From Synergistaceae bacterium (GTDB lineage: Bacteria > Synergistota > Synergistia > Synergistales > Aminobacteriaceae): a stretch of 64,000 nucleotides of DNA. Position numbers and translations under genes: made by a program. The notes under the pieces are model-generated. The model worked only from the letters and a program-made list of their open reading frames with translations, did not search any database and was not told the DNA's origin. Numbering within the stretch: position 1 is the first letter of the stretch; every line of letters begins with the position of its first letter. Where the stretch lies: the NCBI GenBank assembly GCA_018436785.1, contig JAHDKR010000004.1:1-64000 (forward strand), written 5' to 3'. Below are positions 1,706 through 27,011 of the stretch, piece after piece.

Positions 1706-3766
1706 ATGACGAATATGGATATGAGCCAGTATATGGGAGCTTTCCTCGACGAAGCGGGGGACAATCTGAAGCACCTCGACGATCTTACGCTCGTGATCGA
1801 AAAAGACCCGGGGAATTCGGAGGCTATCGCCGAGATCTTCCGGTCGGCGCACACCCTCAAAGGGATGTCCGCGACGATGGGGTTCGACAGGATGGCTTCC
1901 CTCACCCACGCCATGGAGGACATGCTCGACGCCGTCCGAAAAGGGGAATATTCATTAAGCGCGGGGGATATCGACCTGCTCTTCCGTTCGCTTGATACGC
2001 TGCAGTCAATGGTCGACGCCATACGGTCGGTTGGAAGCGACGCTTCGGTGGATACCGACGCTCTCGTAAAGTCTATACGAGCCGCGGGGGTTAACAGAGG
2101 AGCTGAACCGCCTGCGGCGGAAGAAAAAGCTCTGAACGACGAGCTCTCCGGCCAGGAGCAGAAGTGGGTGACCGAGGCCGCGGCAATGGGGTTCGGAGTG
2201 TTCGAAGCCTCCGTGACGCTCTCCTCGGACTGCCTTTTGAAGGCTGCCCGGGCATACATGGTTGTCAGCAGGCTTGACGAGATGGGGGATATCATCAAGA
2301 CGGTTCCCCCGGTGGAAGCCCTCGAAAATGAGGAGTTTGCCCATGATTTCCTCGTATACGTTTCTACTCATCACAAGGCGGAGGCATTGAAGGACGCCGT
2401 AAACAGGGTGAGCGAGGTCGCCTCGGTTGAAATACGCGAGCTGTCCGCCTCGCCGGCGGAAGCGGCTTCTGAAGAGGCCGTCACTGTGGCGGCTCAGGGA
2501 CCGACGCCACAGGAGGTTTCAGCCTCGTCGCCTGTCCATGAGGAAAAAACGGCCTCCCCGAAAATGCCTGCGGCAACGCCGCCCCAGCGAAAAACGGAAG
2601 CGGCGAAAAAACAGAGCCAGACGGTTCGAGTCGATATCGGCCGTCTCGATAAGCTCATGAATCTTGTCGGCGAGCTTGTCATCGGGCGCGCCCGCATCGA
2701 GCGCCTCGTGCAGGAGGCGCATCTCCGCGAATTCGACGATCCGCTCTCTCAGCTCGGCCGGATTTCCGGCGATATCCAGGAGCTCGTGACGAAACTGCGC
2801 ATGGTCCCCGTCTCCTTTATTTTCGAGCGTTTCCCCCGCCTTGTCCGCGATCTTTCAAAGACGCTCGGCAAGGAGATTGAACTGGTGATGGAAGGGCAGG
2901 AGACGGAGCTCGACCGGACGGTGATCGACGAGATCGGCGAGCCGATGGTGCATATCATCAGAAACTCCATCGACCACGGTATCGAGAAGACAGAGGACCG
3001 TAAAAAAGCTGGCAAGCCCTCCAAGGGTATCATCAAAATATCCGCATACCAGGAGGGGAGCGGCGTTATCATCGAGGTCACCGACGACGGCAAGGGAATC
3101 GACGCTGCCAAGGTCCGTGCGAAGGCGCTTGCGAACGGCGTCATCACCGAAGAAGAGTCTGCCGCCATGAGCGACGAGGAGGTTGTCCACCTTATCTTCC
3201 TTCCCGGTTTCAGCATGGCGGAGAAGATCACGGATGTCTCCGGCAGGGGCGTGGGAATGGACGCGGTCAAGACGAAGGTTGAATCGCTCGGCGGGCAGTT
3301 CGATATTTCGACCGAGCTGGGCGTCGGTACGCGCGTTTTCGTCAGACTGCCATTGACGCTTGCGATCGTCCTCGCGCTTTTGATCAAGGTTGGTGAGGAG
3401 ACGTACGCGCTGCCCCTGGAGAACGTCGAGGAGACCATCCTCGTGAAGAAGGAAAACGTCAAGACGGTCCACGGTACTCCTGCCACGCTGCTTCGGGGAG
3501 AAGTGCTCACACTCTGCGATCTTTCGAAAATGCTCCATACGCCGCGAGCCTCCGGCGAGGAGAACGACGAGTACCCCGTGGTCGTCGTCAAAACAGGGAA
3601 GACGCGAGTCGGCTTCATTGTCGACGAGCTGATCGGCCAGCAGGATATCGTCATCAAGTCGCTCGGCCGGTTCCTCTCGAAGATCAAGGGGATTGCGGGC
3701 GCCACCATTTTGGGCGACGGCAACGTGGCGCTCATTCTGGACGTGGCCGGTCTGCACGGCAGATAA
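1706..3766 (+). CDS. cheA: CheA chemotaxis sensor histidine kinase
   Basis: A 686-residue multidomain kinase. The N-terminal HPt domain carries the phosphorylated His49 in RSAHTLKG. A CheY-binding P2-like region spans roughly 155-250 and a Pro/Ala/Glu-rich linker follows. The dimerisation helix pair begins near LMNLVGELVIGRARI. The HATPase domain shows the N-box HIIRNSIDHG and the G boxes DDGKGID and GRGVGMD. The C-terminal P5 CheW-like domain contains ALPLENVEE. It phosphorylates CheY and CheB in response to receptor state. No cheW gene follows it, so the coupling protein must be encoded elsewhere. Confidence 0.97.
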   Translation: MTNMDMSQYMGAFLDEAGDNLKHLDDLTLVIEKDPGNSEAIAEIFRSAHTLKGMSATMGFDRMASLTHAMEDMLDAVRKGEYSLSAGDIDLLFRSLDTLQSMVDAIRSVGSDASVDTDALVKSIRAAGVNRGAEPPAAEEKALNDELSGQEQKWVTEAAAMGFGVFEASVTLSSDCLLKAARAYMVVSRLDEMGDIIKTVPPVEALENEEFAHDFLVYVSTHHKAEALKDAVNRVSEVASVEIRELSASPAEAASEEAVTVAAQGPTPQEVSASSPVHEEKTASPKMPAATPPQRKTEAAKKQSQTVRVDIGRLDKLMNLVGELVIGRARIERLVQEAHLREFDDPLSQLGRISGDIQELVTKLRMVPVSFIFERFPRLVRDLSKTLGKEIELVMEGQETELDRTVIDEIGEPMVHIIRNSIDHGIEKTEDRKKAGKPSKGIIKISAYQEGSGVIIEVTDDGKGIDAAKVRAKALANGVITEEESAAMSDEEVVHLIFLPGFSMAEKITDVSGRGVGMDAVKTKVESLGGQFDISTELGVGTRVFVRLPLTLAIVLALLIKVGEETYALPLENVEETILVKKENVKTVHGTPATLLRGEVLTLCDLSKMLHTPRASGEENDEYPVVVVKTGKTRVGFIVDELIGQQDIVIKSLGRFLSKIKGIAGATILGDGNVALILDVAGLHGR

Positions 3767-13954: not shown

Positions 13955-14014
13955 ACAAGAGGCGCTCTTGCTGGTAGAATTTACTGGAATTCGATACGAG
14001 GGAGTGTGCATGCC

Positions 14015-14659
14015 GTGACCGGGAAAGCAACATCTGCAGAAAAACGAGACGCAAGTCTCCCTCAAGAGAGCGCGATGGTTCTTCCCGATACAGCCGGAGG
14101 CTCCCCTGAAGCAATGGATGAAGCGACGTTGTGGAGGAGATGTGCGGAAGAGCACGATGAAGATGCGAGGGATTCCCTGATCGTTTCCTATCGTCCTCTG
14201 GTATTCTGGCTCGCAAAGAAATTTCACGTTCACCCCTCGTCGTACCAGGATCTGATTCAGGAGGGGATGCTTGCCCTCATTCGTGCGGTGGACAAGTTCG
14301 AGCCGGAACGTCATCTCAAATTTACCACCTATGCGTTTTACCGGATTAAAGGACAGATGATCAACTTTCTGCAGCGCTCCGAAAAAAAGGCTCCTCTTCC
14401 TGTGGACGATGAGTTCCTTATGCCGGAGGACCCTTTCCTTCCTGAAACATTCGAGACTATGCTTGCTCTTTCGGAAGAGTTACGACGGCTCCCGGCAAAG
14501 GAGGGGGAGGTGCTGCAGGCAATTCTTATGGATGGACGGGAGGCAAGAGAGGTAGCGCAGGAGCGCGGAATCGATATCAGTCACGTCTATCGTCTGAAGA
14601 GGAATGCGCTGGCGAAACTTCGCAAATGGCTTGGCGCCGAAGCCACAAACGAGGTCTAA
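14015..14659 (+). CDS. Sigma-70 family RNA polymerase sigma factor (regions 2 and 4 only)
   Basis: 214 residues from the GTG at 14015; GAGGGAG at 13998-14004 is well placed for it and too close for the earlier GTG at 14006. Region 2 contains YQDLIQEGMLALIRAVDKFE and LKFTTYAFYRIKGQMINFL. A short linker replaces region 3. Region 4 ends in the helix-turn-helix EVAQERGIDISHVYRLKRNAL. This resembles the SigH-like alternative factors. The next gene encodes a single-pass membrane protein with anti-sigma-like topology, and bamA follows, so an envelope-stress role is possible but inferred. Confidence 0.87.
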   Translation: MTGKATSAEKRDASLPQESAMVLPDTAGGSPEAMDEATLWRRCAEEHDEDARDSLIVSYRPLVFWLAKKFHVHPSSYQDLIQEGMLALIRAVDKFEPERHLKFTTYAFYRIKGQMINFLQRSEKKAPLPVDDEFLMPEDPFLPETFETMLALSEELRRLPAKEGEVLQAILMDGREAREVAQERGIDISHVYRLKRNALAKLRKWLGAEATNEV

Positions 14660-14741: not shown

Positions 14742-15500
14742 ATGGAGAAGAAGATCGCTCGAATTTATAGATGGCTTGAACGGTGCGCGAAGGCATGTTC
14801 CGCAGGTTCTTGGAACAGCGCGCTGCTTGATATGGAGTGCGCGAAAGCCGAGCTGGAAGATGTCCGGACGGAGATCTGGTCGAAGACCGAGGGGGCTTTC
14901 GGGGTGCGGCCGACCAGGAGAGGCGCTCTCGCCCTGAAGGCGTCTTTTTTGAGCGTCGTCCTTCTTTTTTCCCTTGCCGCGCCGCTTGCGATACAGAGTT
15001 CGAGACCGGCGTCTTCTGTGTATCAGGCGAGCGGAAATGTTCACTCGGGAGAGCATGTCCTTGAATGGGTGACTGGCGACGAGCAGGCTGTTCTTGCCGC
15101 TCTTCGTAAAAGCCTGAGCGATGCGAATCGAGCGTGGAGTGCGGCTGCGTTTCGAGGTGAAACCGACGCGGTCGCTGGTGAATCGGCGAGCGCCCCCGCA
15201 ATGGACGAAGACCCTGTTGCGGAGGAGAAAACCTATGTCGCCCGCGCTCCGTCTGCGTCGGAAGGAAGCGGAGCTTCCCGTGAGTCCGGAGCCGAAACTG
15301 TTTCCCGCCGGGTGCGTCCGAAAGCTCAGGGAGAACCTGCGGCAGGCTCAGCTGGACTGAAGAACGAAGTCGTCGCCGGTGAAGACGCTATCCGCCCTTC
15401 CTCAGTGGCAAATGAACTCGATTCAATAATCTCCCTTGTGCAGATAGGACAAAAAGCCTTGCGCGAGAGGGAGTCTCCGATACAGTTTCAACGTCCGTGA
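14742..15500 (+). CDS. Single-pass membrane protein of unknown function; candidate anti-sigma factor
   Basis: 252 residues from an ATG with GGGAGGA upstream. The first 60 residues are soluble, helical and contain cysteines (RWLERCAKACSAG). One transmembrane helix follows (about 66-84, ALKASFLSVVLLFSLAAPLA). The remaining 165 residues are Ala/Ser/Glu-rich and mostly disordered, presumably periplasmic. There is no signal-peptidase pattern. This in-TM-out layout directly downstream of a sigma-70 gene is typical of transmembrane anti-sigma factors, but I see no known anti-sigma domain such as a ZAS motif. Function remains unassigned. Confidence 0.7.
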   Translation: MEKKIARIYRWLERCAKACSAGSWNSALLDMECAKAELEDVRTEIWSKTEGAFGVRPTRRGALALKASFLSVVLLFSLAAPLAIQSSRPASSVYQASGNVHSGEHVLEWVTGDEQAVLAALRKSLSDANRAWSAAAFRGETDAVAGESASAPAMDEDPVAEEKTYVARAPSASEGSGASRESGAETVSRRVRPKAQGEPAAGSAGLKNEVVAGEDAIRPSSVANELDSIISLVQIGQKALRERESPIQFQRP

Positions 15501-15542: not shown

Positions 15543-15573
15543 TTGATGGCGTGCGTTTTACAGAGTGTATATT
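15543..15573 (+). promoter_or_regulatory. Putative promoter upstream of bamA
   Basis: TTGATG (15543-15548) is followed after 17 bp by TGTATA, or after 19 bp by TATATT. The region is AT-rich compared with its surroundings. It would give a leader of about 50 nt and could drive the whole envelope cluster. Confidence 0.45.
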
Positions 15574-15628
15574 TTTTCGTCCCGTTCAGGACGAATTCAT
15601 TTTTGTTTTTTGGAAGGAGAGAGCGTGC

Positions 15629-17368
15629 GTGAAAGGAATATTTGGAAGGTCCTGGCCGGCGGCGTGCATCTTTTTATTAATGGCGGCGATTCTGTTCGGA
15701 GCGTATCCCGCCGCAGCTGCAGACCCTCTGGTCGCAGCGCTGGATGTGGAGGGGAACGACCATGTCGTCTCCGAACACATTCTTGGAGTGATCCGAACGG
15801 CCGTAGGAGAGCCGCTCAGCCGTGAGCAGCTCCAGAGCGACGTTGAGGCCATCTATGCCTTGGGTTTCTTCTCGTTCGTCGATATCAACCTCGCCAGTAT
15901 TGGCGGAGGGGTTGGCGTCACCTTTAGTGTACGTGAGAACCCTGTCGTTGAGACCGTTACCTTCTCGGGCAACGAGATTTACAACGACGAGGAGCTCCTG
16001 AAGCTTGTCTTCACGACTCCGGGCAACGTGTTCAACAGGGTCTTCTTCCGCCACGACCTCGACCGGATCCAGGAGAAGTATCACAAGGACGGCTACGTGA
16101 TGGTGAAGATAGCGGACGTCCAGGTGCTTGACGGAAACGTCACTGTACAGGTAGTGGAGCCCAAGGTGGGGAACATCATCATCCAGGGGAATCGCAAAAC
16201 GAAGACGAACGTCATCGCCCGCGAGATCAAGATGCAGCGGGGAGATCCATTCAATGCGACCATTCTCAGACACTCGATTAATAAACTGCAGGCCAAAGGT
16301 TTTTTCGAGGATGTCAACGTGGGGTTCGAGCCTGGGGAAACTCCCGAGGAGACCGATATTATTCTCACTGTAATCGAACAGAAGACCGGAAAAATCGGAC
16401 TCTCTGTCAGCCACGGTACTGAAAGCGGCTGGTCCGGAGGACTTACCTACACCGATACCAACTGGAAAGGGCTCGGTCACGTAGGAGAAGTTGGTTTCGA
16501 GACTGGAGACAACGAACAGTACTGGATTTCATATTCGGAACCGTACATGGATTCCAAGCATTACGCATGGAAGGTCGGCCTCGCGAGACGCAAGTGGGAG
16601 GACCGGTACTACTACAGGCGTGGTGTAAAGCAACTTCGGTATGACGAAGAGTTGAAGAATATCTATATTGGCGCGGGAAAGAAATTTGGCAAAGACGAGA
16701 AGTTCAGCTGGTTTCTGACCTTGGATTGGCGCGATATAGACGCCTACAACATCAGAGAACAAGTCGGAGTTGACGATCTGACGCGCGGAAAGATATTCTC
16801 CGTTCTGGGTACTGTAACTCGAAATAATACGGATCCCTATCTTAGTTATCTCAAGGGCGACGTCATCGACCTGAATGTAGAGCAGGCGATGGAAGTTTTA
16901 GGCGGGGAGCATAACTTTACGAAGTACTGGCTGCAAGCCAGATATTATACGCCGATAAAGGGGCTCGAAGATCTCTTGAACCGCCAAATCGGCGGAGATC
17001 CCGATAATCCTGCTATCTTCGCCGCGAGGATGCGTATCGGTTTTTCTTCCGGAACCTTGCCGACCGCCAGTCTTTATTCGCTCGGCGGTTCGAGTACGCT
17101 CAGAGGGTATGACGGCGGGGAGTACGAGGGAACGAAGATGTTCCTGGCCAACCTTGAACTGCGTGTTCCTATCGAGAAGGCGTTTGGCCTTGTTCTCTTC
17201 TACGATACGGGGAACGCATGGCTTGAAGAGAGCATGAATTTTTCCGATCTTCATGATGCGTGGGGAGTCGGCGTCAGGGTAAAGACTCCTCTGGGGAACT
17301 TCCGGCTCGACCATGCCACGGGAGAGAATGAAACACGAACGCATTTCGGTTTTGGAGAAATGTTCTAG
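15629..17368 (+). CDS. bamA: BamA/Omp85 outer-membrane assembly protein with three POTRA domains
   Basis: 579 residues from the GTG at 15629, preceded by GGAAGGAGAG. A signal peptide ends around YPAAAA. Three POTRA domains follow (about 33-105, 106-178 and 179-255, each with the pattern strand, GNxx, helix, helix, strand), then a 16-strand-type beta-barrel ending in aromatic residues (HFGFGEMF). The conserved barrel motif LGGSSTLRGYDGGEY corresponds to the Omp85 L6 VRGY/F element. It inserts beta-barrel proteins into the outer membrane. Proteobacterial BamA has five POTRAs and about 800 residues; the shorter form is seen in other diderm phyla. It heads the lipid A cluster. Confidence 0.93.
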   Translation: MKGIFGRSWPAACIFLLMAAILFGAYPAAAADPLVAALDVEGNDHVVSEHILGVIRTAVGEPLSREQLQSDVEAIYALGFFSFVDINLASIGGGVGVTFSVRENPVVETVTFSGNEIYNDEELLKLVFTTPGNVFNRVFFRHDLDRIQEKYHKDGYVMVKIADVQVLDGNVTVQVVEPKVGNIIIQGNRKTKTNVIAREIKMQRGDPFNATILRHSINKLQAKGFFEDVNVGFEPGETPEETDIILTVIEQKTGKIGLSVSHGTESGWSGGLTYTDTNWKGLGHVGEVGFETGDNEQYWISYSEPYMDSKHYAWKVGLARRKWEDRYYYRRGVKQLRYDEELKNIYIGAGKKFGKDEKFSWFLTLDWRDIDAYNIREQVGVDDLTRGKIFSVLGTVTRNNTDPYLSYLKGDVIDLNVEQAMEVLGGEHNFTKYWLQARYYTPIKGLEDLLNRQIGGDPDNPAIFAARMRIGFSSGTLPTASLYSLGGSSTLRGYDGGEYEGTKMFLANLELRVPIEKAFGLVLFYDTGNAWLEESMNFSDLHDAWGVGVRVKTPLGNFRLDHATGENETRTHFGFGEMF

Positions 17369-17390
17369 AGCGCCCGAAGGAGGCGCCGAT

Positions 17391-18704
17391 GTGCATCCTT
17401 CTGCGCACAAGGGAGTATTGAACGGATTCTTCAAGGGCTGTGTGCTGTTTTTCCTTGCCGCAGCCCTTGGCTTCGTTATCCCCTCCCGAGCGTGCGCATA
17501 CGCCGGGGATATCCGGGTCGAAGGCGTCCCGTTCTGGCTTCGTCCAAGCGTCGAGAGGAGTCTGCGTTCTGTATGGAACGAGATTGCGCAGCGCTCCGGA
17601 TTTTCCGGAGAAGATCGCCGTGCGCTCCTCTCGGTCGTTGCGGAGAGGCTTTTCGTTGGCTACTCCTCCTCGGTTTTGCTCTCCGAGTCCGGTGTGATTG
17701 TCACCCTTTTCCCGGTTTCGCCCGTCGCGTGGACGGTGGAGATAAAAACGCCGTCGCTTTCCTCCCCGGTTGAGGAGTGGTTTGCTGAAAATGTCGCGGA
17801 GCTCGGCGGGACGCTGGAACGGATGCTTGCACTGCTCCCGCTCGAGGCGCTTTCTTGGGCCGATATAGCATTGAATGAAGCGATTGAAGACGTATGCGCG
17901 CCTCTCCTTCCCGGCTGGAACCCGTCCCTCATCGTGCGCCTTGAAGGGAGGGGAATTGCAAGCGGACCGCCTCCAGCGGACGAAAAACGTATTCTGCAGA
18001 TCTCTTTTTCTCCCAAACCTCCCTTGGTGCTGGCTATCGTTCCGTCCATCTCTTCCTCCACGCTGCCCGTAGCCTTTCGCTCCGACCTGAGGGAGAAGAT
18101 ATTGAGGACGCTTGCTCCGGTTGTCGGTCTGCCAATAGAGTGGGCGGCAAAAAACAAGCTCCGTATAGAAGCTCTTGCCGCAGAGGCGCTGTTCGATACC
18201 AATACGGTGTCGAACGCCCGGGCGACCGTTGACGTTTCCTTCTCCCCCGAGCAACTCTCCCCCGTGCAAGCAGAAGTGGAGAGCCCGAGATATACTATCC
18301 GGGCGTGGATAGCCGCGTATGCCGGAGCGGACGGGAAGTACCCTGAGATCGGCCTTCACCTGGGAAGAAACGCGCTGCCGCTCTCCGGGTGGGATGTAGA
18401 GCTCTACGGCGAATGGATACTCGCAGCCAACGATTTTTCATTGGAAAGCAGATGGGGAGCACGCTGGAGTCCGTGGAAGCACATCCTCATCGGAGCGGAA
18501 GCGGCCTTTCCGGGAAATGTTCTCTGGTATCGGCTCTCGGTTGCAGGCGGTTCCCGTTCTCCGTATTTCTGGTGGCGTCTGAGCGAGGATGGCGATTCAA
18601 TGGTTGGTTTCGGATACCGCCTCGACGAGAGGATCTCCCTTGAGCTTCACTATGATGAACGTTCGGAAGATACGCTGACGCTGAAGGCGATCAGCGATCT
18701 GTAA
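17391..18704 (+). CDS. Unknown exported, probably outer-membrane, protein in the skp position
   Basis: 437 residues from the GTG at 17391, with AAGGAGG 7 bp upstream. A signal peptide (hydrophobic VLFFLAAALGFVIPS, cleavage near ACAYA) is followed by DIRVEGVPFWLRPSVERSL, which resembles the opening of a POTRA domain. The last 110 residues alternate aromatic and polar residues (WDVELYGEWI, WGARWSPWKH, SRSPYFWWRL, LELHYDERS) as in a small beta-barrel. I recognise no family. In enterobacteria skp lies between bamA and lpxD; here this protein occupies that slot, so a role in outer-membrane biogenesis is a reasonable inference. Confidence 0.75.
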   Translation: MHPSAHKGVLNGFFKGCVLFFLAAALGFVIPSRACAYAGDIRVEGVPFWLRPSVERSLRSVWNEIAQRSGFSGEDRRALLSVVAERLFVGYSSSVLLSESGVIVTLFPVSPVAWTVEIKTPSLSSPVEEWFAENVAELGGTLERMLALLPLEALSWADIALNEAIEDVCAPLLPGWNPSLIVRLEGRGIASGPPPADEKRILQISFSPKPPLVLAIVPSISSSTLPVAFRSDLREKILRTLAPVVGLPIEWAAKNKLRIEALAAEALFDTNTVSNARATVDVSFSPEQLSPVQAEVESPRYTIRAWIAAYAGADGKYPEIGLHLGRNALPLSGWDVELYGEWILAANDFSLESRWGARWSPWKHILIGAEAAFPGNVLWYRLSVAGGSRSPYFWWRLSEDGDSMVGFGYRLDERISLELHYDERSEDTLTLKAISDL

Positions 18705-18737
18705 ACCGAGAAATTTGCTTTGAACGGAGGACATGGA

Positions 18738-19850
18738 ATGGAAGGAGTATGGACTCTCCGATCTCTAGCGGAGAGGGTCGAAGGCAGGGTGATAGGAGAT
18801 GCGGCGCTTCTTGTGGAAGGCGTGGCCTCTCCTTCGAAGGCTCGCAGGGGAGAGATCGTCTGTCTGTGGAATGCATTCGATACGGCTTCCGGACAAAAAA
18901 CGGACTCTCCGGAGCCTTCGCCTGAAGCGGTCAATTCCTCCGAGGGCGTTCTTTTCCTGGCAGCGCCGGAGTTTTTTGCCCGCCACGCCGATGCGTCCGG
19001 AGTAGCCGTTGAGCATCCGAAGAAAGTATTCCCTCTTGTGCTTGCTCTTTTTTCTCGCGCGCTTCGTTCCGGCGCTCAGTGCGGAATCCATCCGACGGCG
19101 GTTGTGTCTCCGAAGGCGAGTGTTGCTCCATCCGCCTGGATAGGTCCTCTCTGTATAATTGACGAAGGCGCCGTCATCGAGGAACGCGCTTTTTTACATG
19201 GCCGGGTTTTTATCGGCAGAGACTGCTGTGTGGGGGCGGAGACCACAGTCGAACCGGGGGCGGTCCTCTTTGAAAGCGTGCGAACAGGACGCCGCTGCCT
19301 TATTCACTCCAATGCGGTTCTCGGGTGCGACGGATTCGGTATTACTCCCTCCGCAGGCGAGGCGCCGCCGGAGAAAATTCCTCAGATAGGCGGCGTCGTC
19401 CTCGGAGACGATGTGGAGCTGGGCGTCTGCTCAACGGTGGACAGGGGAACGCTTGACGATACTGTGATCGCGAATGGTACGAAGGTGGATAATCATGTGC
19501 ACATCGCGCACAATGTCCGCATAGGCAGGAACTGTATTCTCGTCGCCATGACGGGAATCGCCGGCAGCGCCATCCTTGAGGACAACGTGATCATGGCGGC
19601 CGGCAGCGGGGTGAAAGAGCATACGCGGATAGGGAAGGGCGCTACGGTCGCGGCGAAAGGCGGAGCGATCAAGGATGTTCCTCCGGGGGAGGTCGTCTCG
19701 GGTTTTCCGGCTCGTCCTCACAGAGAGAACTTCAGGGTACAGGCGGCGTTGCAGCGCCTTCCGGAAACGCTCTCCCGTGTAAAGAAGCTCGAAAAACGCC
19801 TTGACGCGCTGCTCCCCGATGGGAGAGGCGGGAGCGGAGCAGGAGAATGA
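18738..19850 (+). CDS. lpxD: UDP-3-O-acylglucosamine N-acyltransferase
   Basis: 370 residues from the ATG at 18738 (GGAGG 7 bp upstream). The N-terminal uridine-binding domain (1-110) precedes a left-handed beta-helix of hexapeptide repeats (IHPTAVVSPKASVAPSAWIG onward). The signature GCDGFGITPS and the catalytic His region DNHVHIAHNVRIGRNC are present. It adds the N-linked acyl chain to UDP-3-O-acyl-GlcN, the third step of lipid A synthesis. An insert near 45-75 makes it slightly long for the family. It overlaps lpxC by 4 bp (ATGA). Confidence 0.96.
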   Translation: MEGVWTLRSLAERVEGRVIGDAALLVEGVASPSKARRGEIVCLWNAFDTASGQKTDSPEPSPEAVNSSEGVLFLAAPEFFARHADASGVAVEHPKKVFPLVLALFSRALRSGAQCGIHPTAVVSPKASVAPSAWIGPLCIIDEGAVIEERAFLHGRVFIGRDCCVGAETTVEPGAVLFESVRTGRRCLIHSNAVLGCDGFGITPSAGEAPPEKIPQIGGVVLGDDVELGVCSTVDRGTLDDTVIANGTKVDNHVHIAHNVRIGRNCILVAMTGIAGSAILEDNVIMAAGSGVKEHTRIGKGATVAAKGGAIKDVPPGEVVSGFPARPHRENFRVQAALQRLPETLSRVKKLEKRLDALLPDGRGGSGAGE

Positions 19851-24676: not shown

Positions 24677-25842
24677 CCGCGGAGCTGGCCGCCGGAGGGC
24701 TTTTCATCAGTTGCGGCGAGCTTTCCGGCGACGGATATGCTTCCGCTGTCGTGCGGACGCTGCGCTCCAAGGGGGTTGGCGGAAGGATCTTTGGAATGGG
24801 CGGGACGCGAAGCGCCGCTGCAGGTGTGGAAATCCTCTGGGACTCCCGTATGCTCCACCTCATGGGTATCGGCGAGGTGCTTCCCTCGATCCCTCGCCTG
24901 CTCCGTCTGAAGTCCAGGATGATCGATACCGTTATGTTCAGCGGAGTGCCAACAGTTCTCGTGATCGACAGCCCGGATTTTCATCTTCCGTTCGTTGCTT
25001 CTCTTCGTGCCCGCGGGTGGCGCGGACGCGTCGTGTACGCGGTTCCTCCCACGGTATGGGCGTGGAGGAGCGGCCGGGTGAAGGCGCTTGCCCGCGACGT
25101 GGATCTCTGCCTTCCTCTCTTTCGCTTTGAACACGAATTTCTGCAAGCGCACGGCGTCGTCTCCGCATGGCGAGGGCACCCGTTGGCGGATGATTTTGCC
25201 TCTGTCGCTCCGTCGTTCCCCCCTCTGGAGGCGCGTCGCATAGCTCTTCTTCCCGGAAGCAGGCGATCGGAGATTCGCCGTCTCCTTCCGACGCTGCGGG
25301 GGAGCGCCTCTCAGCTACGGGCCGAGGGGTTCTCCCCGGTCTTCTCCGTCGCCCCCGGACTCTCCGACGACCTGAAGGAGTGGATGAAGCGAGAGCTTCG
25401 AGGCATGGAGATTTTCGAGGGGGAGGGGCGCGAGCTCCTCTCCGGGAGCGCCGCGGCCGCGGGAGCCAGCGGCACTGTCGCCGTCGAGGCGATGCTGCTC
25501 GACCGGTTTATGGTCGTGCTGTATAAAACGGGTTTCCTCTCGGAATGCGTCTGGAGGATGCTGGCGAAGACGGAGAGGATCTCTCTGCCCAATATCCTCG
25601 CCGGGAGGGATGTCTACCCCGAGCTGCTGCAGCGGCATGCGACGCCGAAAAACGCGATGGAAGCGCTGCTCCGCTACCTCCGCGACCCTGAGTATCGCGA
25701 CGCCGTTCACAGCGGCCTTCGAATCGCCAGGGAGGGGATGGGAGAGCCCGGAGCGCTTGCATTCTGGGCGGAGAGCATTCTGTCCGGCGAGGTTGAAACG
25801 CGGCGTCCGGAGCGGCAGCGTACCGAGGAGACATCTCCGTGA
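24673..25842 (+). CDS. lpxB: Lipid-A-disaccharide synthase
   Basis: 389 residues from a TTG at 24673 that overlaps the lpxI stop and has GGAGG 9 bp upstream. GT19 motifs are complete: GLFISCGELSGDGYA near the start, FGMGGTRSAAAGVE, LVIDSPDFHLP, PPTVWAWRSGRVK, the nucleotide-binding LLPGSRRSEIRRLLP, AGASGTVAVEAMLLD, and ISLPNILAGRDVYPELLQ. It joins lipid X with UDP-diacyl-GlcN to form the tetraacyl disaccharide. This is the canonical LpxB of three LpxB-related proteins in this cluster. Confidence 0.95.
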   Translation: MTAELAAGGLFISCGELSGDGYASAVVRTLRSKGVGGRIFGMGGTRSAAAGVEILWDSRMLHLMGIGEVLPSIPRLLRLKSRMIDTVMFSGVPTVLVIDSPDFHLPFVASLRARGWRGRVVYAVPPTVWAWRSGRVKALARDVDLCLPLFRFEHEFLQAHGVVSAWRGHPLADDFASVAPSFPPLEARRIALLPGSRRSEIRRLLPTLRGSASQLRAEGFSPVFSVAPGLSDDLKEWMKRELRGMEIFEGEGRELLSGSAAAAGASGTVAVEAMLLDRFMVVLYKTGFLSECVWRMLAKTERISLPNILAGRDVYPELLQRHATPKNAMEALLRYLRDPEYRDAVHSGLRIAREGMGEPGALAFWAESILSGEVETRRPERQRTEETSP

Positions 25843-27011
25843 GCAGGAAGATCGCTTTGCTGACCAACGGCCCCGGAGAGCTCTGGGGGTGGGTTCGCCC
25901 CTTTGCTGCGGAGCTGCTTCGCCGCTGCTGGGACGTGTCGCTCAGGATTCTTCCCTGTCAGTTCGCGTCGGGGGAAGAGCGCCGCATCGCGCTCGCTCTC
26001 GGTATTCCGGATGTGTCCGGACCGGAATCGTCTCTCCGGACGGCGCTCTCCCTGCGGAAATTCGGGAAAGGGGCGAACGGAACCCCTCCCGACGCGGTGG
26101 TGCAGCTCGGCGGCGACCTGCTCTGGGGGCGGATGCTTGCCGCGAGCGCCCGGGCGCCGCTCTTCTGTTACTCGTACGGGCGAAAAAACGGGATAGAACG
26201 CTGCGCCGCCCTCTTTACCGCCTACAGAGAGATGGCGGAGTCGATCGCCTCCTCCGGCGAGGGGCAATCGCTGCAACGGACAGGACGAATTCTCCTGGCG
26301 GGCGATCTTGCCGCCGAGCTGCCGGATACTTTCGTGCACGCGCCCGACGGCGAAGACCGCATACCTGAGGGACGTCCAAGAGTTGCCTTCTTCCCCGGAA
26401 GCCGGGAACACATCAGGGAGTACGCTGTGCCGCTGATACGCGAGCTTGCTGCGGCGCTGCGAGAGTCGTTCCCTGCGCTTGACGCCCGCATTATTCTTTC
26501 TCCCTTCGCTTCGGCCGGGGAGGAGGAAGCGTTCCGTCGCTCCGGAGACCTGATCCCGGTGCGAGGAGGAAGCAAAGAGTCGCTCCGGGGCCTTGATTTC
26601 GCTGTGACGCAGCCGGGAACGAACACGCTCGAACTGATGCACTGTGCCGTTCCCTTTCTCGTCGCGGTTCCGTTTTCTTCACTTCGCCATATTCCGCTGC
26701 CCGGCGTCGCCGGAGCGCTGGCCAACATTCCGCTGATCGGCCCTGCGCTGCGCGAAGCCGCGCTCAAGGCGAAAGGGCGCCGGACGGGGTTTGTGGCCTG
26801 GCCGAACCGCCTCGCAGGGCGCCAAGTTGTTGATGAACTGATCGGCGATATCTCTGCGCGGGATGTTGCCCGGGTCGTCGGGGGGCATCTTCTGGACGGC
26901 GAGTACCTCGCCCGGACGAGGAAGTCGCTCGCCGCGCTCTCTTCCTCCGCGCCCCGGAACGCCGCCGTATTCATGGCCGATCATATTGAAAGGATGCTTG
27001 CTGAACGATGA
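25839..27011 (+). CDS. LpxB-related glycosyltransferase paralogue of unknown specificity
   Basis: 390 residues from a GTG overlapping the lpxB stop (GTGA). The fold and C-terminal motifs follow LpxB: VAFFPGSREHIREYAVPLIR, VTQPGTNTLELMHCAVPFL, and FVAWPNRLAGRQVVDELIGD, which aligns with ISLPNILAGRDVYPELLQ of lpxB next door. The N-terminal GELSGD motif of true LpxB is replaced by LLTNGPGELWGW, so it is probably not a second lipid-A-disaccharide synthase. It lies between lpxB and msbA with 4-bp overlaps on both sides, which points to lipid A or a related glycolipid. Confidence 0.8.
   Translation: MSRKIALLTNGPGELWGWVRPFAAELLRRCWDVSLRILPCQFASGEERRIALALGIPDVSGPESSLRTALSLRKFGKGANGTPPDAVVQLGGDLLWGRMLAASARAPLFCYSYGRKNGIERCAALFTAYREMAESIASSGEGQSLQRTGRILLAGDLAAELPDTFVHAPDGEDRIPEGRPRVAFFPGSREHIREYAVPLIRELAAALRESFPALDARIILSPFASAGEEEAFRRSGDLIPVRGGSKESLRGLDFAVTQPGTNTLELMHCAVPFLVAVPFSSLRHIPLPGVAGALANIPLIGPALREAALKAKGRRTGFVAWPNRLAGRQVVDELIGDISARDVARVVGGHLLDGEYLARTRKSLAALSSSAPRNAAVFMADHIERMLAER

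Follow-up and report, generated by a model that had tools for sequence, protein, structure and literature searches.

In the Synergistota, a gene directly downstream of bamA encodes a protein that, according to structure prediction, very probably consists of three POTRA-like domains and a closed 10-strand outer-membrane beta-barrel. We refer to the gene and its product as gene X and protein X; the copy studied here lies in a 64,000-nucleotide stretch from a Synergistaceae bacterium (contig JAHDKR010000004.1 of assembly GCA_018436785.1), which we call the window. Membership of protein X in the Omp85 superfamily is not supported. Our best guess, held at slightly less than even confidence, is that it is a Synergistota-specific outer-membrane partner of BamA, because it combines linkage to bamA and skp with periplasm-facing POTRA-like domains and a membrane anchor. 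The explanation as a whole, i.e., a POTRA-like 10-strand-barrel protein that is made from the bamA gene run and works as a BamA partner, is evenly balanced in our judgement. That it represents both a new architecture and a phylum-wide BAM subunit in Synergistota, the first known BAM accessory subunit in Terrabacteria, is a more tentative proposal that we lean against.

Table 1. Gene X, the predicted parts of its product and the flanking genes (positions in the window).
Feature	Positions	Strand	Basis and remarks
gene X	17391..18704	+	437 aa; GTG start, TAA stop; open reading frame with homologues in 157/188 Synergistota genomes
Shine-Dalgarno sequence AAGGAGG	17377..17383	+	7 nt 5' of the gene X GTG; read from the sequence
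signal peptide of protein X	17391..17498	+	likely cut ACA^YAG; judged from sequence make-up
POTRA-like domain D1	17499..17723	+	mature residues 1-75; AlphaFold2 strand-helix-helix-strand-strand
POTRA-like domain D2	17724..18017	+	mature residues 76-173; AlphaFold2 strand-helix-helix-strand-strand; in-register match to D1
POTRA-like domain D3	18018..18284	+	mature residues 174-262; AlphaFold2 strand-helix-helix-strand-strand; weak in-register match to D2
transmembrane beta-barrel, C-terminal, 10 strands	18285..18701	+	AlphaFold2, inside/outside pattern and Foldseek; turns short on both sides
bamA	15551..17368	+	three POTRA stretches and Omp85 barrel (Pfam, NCBIfam); start codon provisional
lpxD	18720..19850	+	Pfam Hexapep; named by order before lpxC-fabZ-lpxA; start codon provisional; same gene run

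The position between bamA and lpxD, as originally predicted, is borne out by the annotation of both flanking genes. Gene X begins after a gap of 22 bp from the end of bamA, in which no terminator-like site was found; one such site is present at 17177-17191, inside the end of bamA, and sites of this kind are weakly more frequent than chance in the region. Downstream, gene X is followed by lpxD, lpxC, fabZ, lpxA, kdsC, lptF/G, lpxI, lpxB and msbA, some of these names having been assigned from gene order together with sequence. A second LpxB-like gene (25839-27011) directly follows lpxB; most of the neighbourhoods that were compared have retained it. On the other side, a gene for a sigma-70-type factor (14006-14659) and a gene at 14742-15500, whose product has one likely membrane segment and no Pfam match, lie directly 5' of bamA. 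Both are found at this position in most of the Synergistota neighbourhoods examined and might be a sigma factor/regulator pair for the outer membrane.

Protein X matched no family in Pfam or NCBIfam. A single homologue out of 29 matched DUF7840 (E 0.005), which we discounted as noise, and the only matches of the family profile to PDB sequences, acyl carrier proteins at E 0.023, were discarded. Within the phylum the gene is widespread: an initial set of the source genome and 60 relatives yielded gene X in 53 of 61 genomes, and in a profile search 157 of 188 Synergistota genomes and 55 of 63 genera were positive, nearly always with a single copy. Since gene X is conserved across the phylum, a chance open reading frame is ruled out. 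In the deepest lineages, sequence identity is as low as about 20-25%. A scan across 84,980 species, which reaches close relatives only, yielded 18 loci, all from Synergistota by their titles, and gene X is likely confined to this phylum; there was no match on plasmids.

Five genomes that are 97-100% complete (G038, G079, G105, G113 and G114) have no match to gene X anywhere, even at E up to 1. In all five, bamA is followed directly by lpxD, showing that gene X is cleanly absent there. These genomes are spread over two families, pointing to at least two losses. Gene X is dispensable for BamA in some species and is not universally essential: at least five genomes have bamA and no gene X, so BamA can work without protein X. 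In a further genome (G010; L087, 6747-8831), the stretch from bamA to fabZ is partly masked, so gene X and lpxD/lpxC cannot be judged there. A same-genus copy (L005; G003 contig C37, about 1988-3242) is represented by two overlapping matches with an internal stop, reflecting a gene that is broken or an error in the assembly.

The N-terminus of protein X is basic and then hydrophobic, ending in the likely cleavage site given in Table 1, and the N-termini of the homologues are hydrophobic too, in keeping with the signal peptide of the original prediction. For the mature protein, AlphaFold2 gave a model with a mean pLDDT of 87 and a pTM of 0.68, on an alignment of 19 sequences only. The modelled elements follow the order beta-alpha-alpha-beta-beta three times, as in POTRA domains, and then form 10 strands; the IRVEGVP segment, which overlaps the DIRVEGV stretch anticipated to be a POTRA-like opening, makes up the first beta-strand and is succeeded by two helices. 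A soluble fold devoid of barrel and POTRA-like elements was not obtained. Comparison of the domains with each other by hhalign shows that D1 and D2 match in register (E 4e-4 to 7.5e-4 as a single comparison), and D2 and D3 match weakly in register (E 0.0075, in one direction).

When modelled alone, the barrel segment again has 10 strands, with a pLDDT of 91 and a pTM of 0.81. With the parity of each strand chosen by inspection, hydrophobic residues account for 80% of outward and 25% of inward positions, charged or polar residues for 6% and 50%, respectively, and conservation is 0.72 for inward versus 0.45 for outward barrel positions. In a parity-free test, the strand alternation exceeded that of all 20,000 shuffles. 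The strands are thus amphipathic and present a lipid-facing hydrophobic exterior, as outer-membrane barrels do. Conserved inward-facing Glu and Arg residues on most strands of the model suggest a closed, salt-bridged barrel lacking a pore. The anticipated barrel-like aromatic C-terminus holds up in part: the model does contain a barrel, but protein X and most of its homologues end in Leu, in contrast to the Phe at the end of all 14 neighbouring BamA proteins, and the C-terminal aromatic residue of the beta-signal is lacking. This residue is not present in every barrel protein.

A closed barrel with a charged interior and short turns is reminiscent of OmpA-type proteins. Protein X could be an ordinary small structural barrel with a periplasmic stalk, contributing to envelope stability in the manner of OmpA and having a function unrelated to BamA, and the absence of gene X is indeed tolerated in some genomes. 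However, no peptidoglycan-binding domain was recognised in protein X, and POTRA-like domains together with a bamA linkage that is fixed across the phylum would be unusual for a structural barrel. We consider this explanation improbable.

In a Foldseek search with the whole model, the top 50 PDB matches were all Omp85 proteins (BamA, TamA, Toc75 and CdiB), with a best E of 3.5e-8. The TM-scores are low, at about 0.2, which makes the domain arrangement uncertain: the local pattern of elements agrees, but the overall layout is not superposable. With the barrel alone, the best match was the designed 10-strand barrel TMB10_163 (PDB 8uzl; TM 0.51-0.57), and no Omp85 protein was present among the top 50. 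The resemblance of the model to Omp85 proteins is therefore probably driven by the POTRA-like part.

Members of the Omp85 superfamily have between one and seven POTRAs and a barrel of 16 strands (PMC13067283). Both AlphaFold2 models of protein X have 10 strands, and PF01103 and the Omp85 models of NCBIfam left protein X unmatched; in each of 20 Synergistota genomes, BamA alone reached the PF01103 cut-off. Profile-profile comparison of the whole protein with BamA gave a non-significant probability of 11%, and no similarity was seen domain by domain, either for D1-D3 against the BamA POTRAs or for barrel against barrel, under conditions in which the BamA POTRAs matched one another at 92-96%. For the three domains modelled in POTRA order, the exclusively Omp85 fold matches of the whole model contrast with the lack of a Pfam POTRA match and of a profile match to BamA POTRAs. 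The RGY/RGF motif is absent from protein X, and the string occurs, at any position in the row, in 3 of the 24 sequences in the family alignment, versus 14 of 14 BamA rows. Because strand number, motif and sequence match all fail, we do not file protein X as an Omp85 protein. The original suggestion of a small Omp85-related protein survives for the overall architecture and fails for the sequence relationship, the strand number (10 versus 16) and the barrel fold, which has no Omp85 matches.

The domain plan of POTRA-like domains followed by a barrel, the exclusively Omp85 fold matches of the whole model and the location beside bamA, like that of a tandem duplicate, would also fit a reduced Omp85 protein, in which the barrel has shrunk to 10 strands and the sequence has diverged past recognition while the insertase mechanism was kept. 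Such a descent is quite unlikely in our view. The barrel on its own resembles a designed barrel rather than any Omp85 member, the motif carried by every BamA examined is missing, profile similarity is lacking for the barrels as well as for the N-terminal parts, and the barrel interior is full of conserved charges, unlike that of Omp85 insertases. The barrel of the latter is larger and has a lateral seam.

Gene X lies between bamA and lpxD in all 12 neighbourhoods that were laid out, which represent seven families and include the source window, and directly 3' of bamA in four deep-branching genomes as well. The conserved linkage to bamA that would be expected of a BAM subunit was thus found in both sets. 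In the deep-branching Synergistota the order is bamA, gene X, skp, lpxD, with skp encoding a member of the OmpH family, while skp of the source genome is on another contig. The original prediction had put gene X exactly in the slot of skp; this is right insofar as deep lineages have skp between gene X and lpxD, and wrong for the source genome, from whose bamA cluster skp probably departed, judging by the deep-lineage order. The position of skp varies within the phylum, from the gap between gene X and lpxD (deep lineages) to 5' of bamA (G105) or far from bamA (source genome); the skp-position loci are L055 3122-3565 (G000 contig C152), L092 4363-4839 and L089 11005-11511.

In the source lineage, gene X occupies the space between bamA and lpxD, as it would if protein X had replaced Skp. 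This notion is contradicted by the presence of skp in all 20 genomes tested, the source genome included, and by the side-by-side order in deep lineages, which together argue that gene X did not displace skp. In addition, protein X has no Pfam match to OmpH, and its modelled fold is unrelated to Skp, making replacement extremely unlikely.

Since lipid A genes directly follow gene X, the main rival to the BamA partner role is one in the delivery of lipid A/LPS or phospholipid, in which the POTRA-like domains would dock a periplasmic bridge and the barrel would act as the anchor, with TamA-TamB as the nearest model. TamA structures rank high in the fold matches of protein X, and TamA itself appears to be absent, with BamA the only protein above the Omp85 cut-off in each of the 20 genomes. 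LptD was not recognised in these 20 genomes either, but the Pfam LptD model was positive in only two control genomes, making its silence uninformative. The co-occurrence with TamB that characterises TamA was not found for gene X: TamB is present in four of the five genomes without gene X and undetected in three deep lineages with gene X, the TamB model being weak here, and the two therefore do not travel together. Moreover, bamA and lipid A genes are commonly mixed in outer-membrane gene clusters. On balance, we regard a lipid delivery role as unlikely.

The preferred role as a BamA partner agrees with the original suggestion of a lineage-specific BamA accessory. In this role, protein X would be made from the bamA gene run, and its barrel, hydrophobic outside and charge-filled inside, would serve as the outer-membrane anchor. 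All three POTRA-like domains would then be located in the periplasm beside the three POTRAs of BamA itself, where they could take part in accepting precursors of outer-membrane proteins, perhaps handed over by Skp, or could brace BamA. Contact with BamA, precursor handling and, more generally, the function proposed for protein X are derived from location and fold. The lipid A synthesis encoded by the adjoining genes and the genomes that keep bamA without gene X weigh against a partner role. For the source BamA, Pfam identifies three POTRA stretches, compared with five POTRAs in E. coli BamA. No BamD was found above the cut-off in the 20 Synergistota genomes. In Terrabacteria, BamA functions without known lipoprotein subunits, though soluble factors yet to be discovered might be involved (PMC13067283). 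In diderm Firmicutes, BamB-E are missing, and tamB, bamA and skp are kept together (PMC5007114). Bacteroidota have phylum-specific BAM subunits, one of which, BamG, is a membrane barrel (PMC12611786). Protein X provides a concrete candidate for testing: it is conserved, has BamA-like predicted periplasmic domains and is encoded beside bamA throughout a phylum of Terrabacteria.

Compared with known systems, protein X shares with Omp85 proteins such as BamA, TamA and Toc75 a signal peptide, domains in POTRA order, a C-terminal membrane barrel and the fold matches of the whole model, and differs in strand number, C-terminal residue, motif, sequence and the fold of the barrel; it would exemplify POTRA-like domains combined with a non-Omp85 barrel. 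TamA, whose crystal structure shows three POTRA domains, is among the highest-scoring of the top matches (query TM-score 0.22), but its barrel is of the 16-strand Omp85 type and its partner is TamB, the presence of which does not track gene X. TMB10_163 matches the barrel of protein X over its full length with the same number of strands, but is artificial and has no periplasmic domains. Skp/OmpH is similar in its neighbouring position in the bamA-lpxD region and different in fold, and the true skp is elsewhere in the source genome. The role proposed for protein X is similar to that of BamG (PMC12611786), likewise a phylum-specific outer-membrane barrel protein; BamG, however, is a FadL-family barrel of 14 strands and seems to be essential, whereas protein X is modelled with POTRA-like domains and some genomes lack it.
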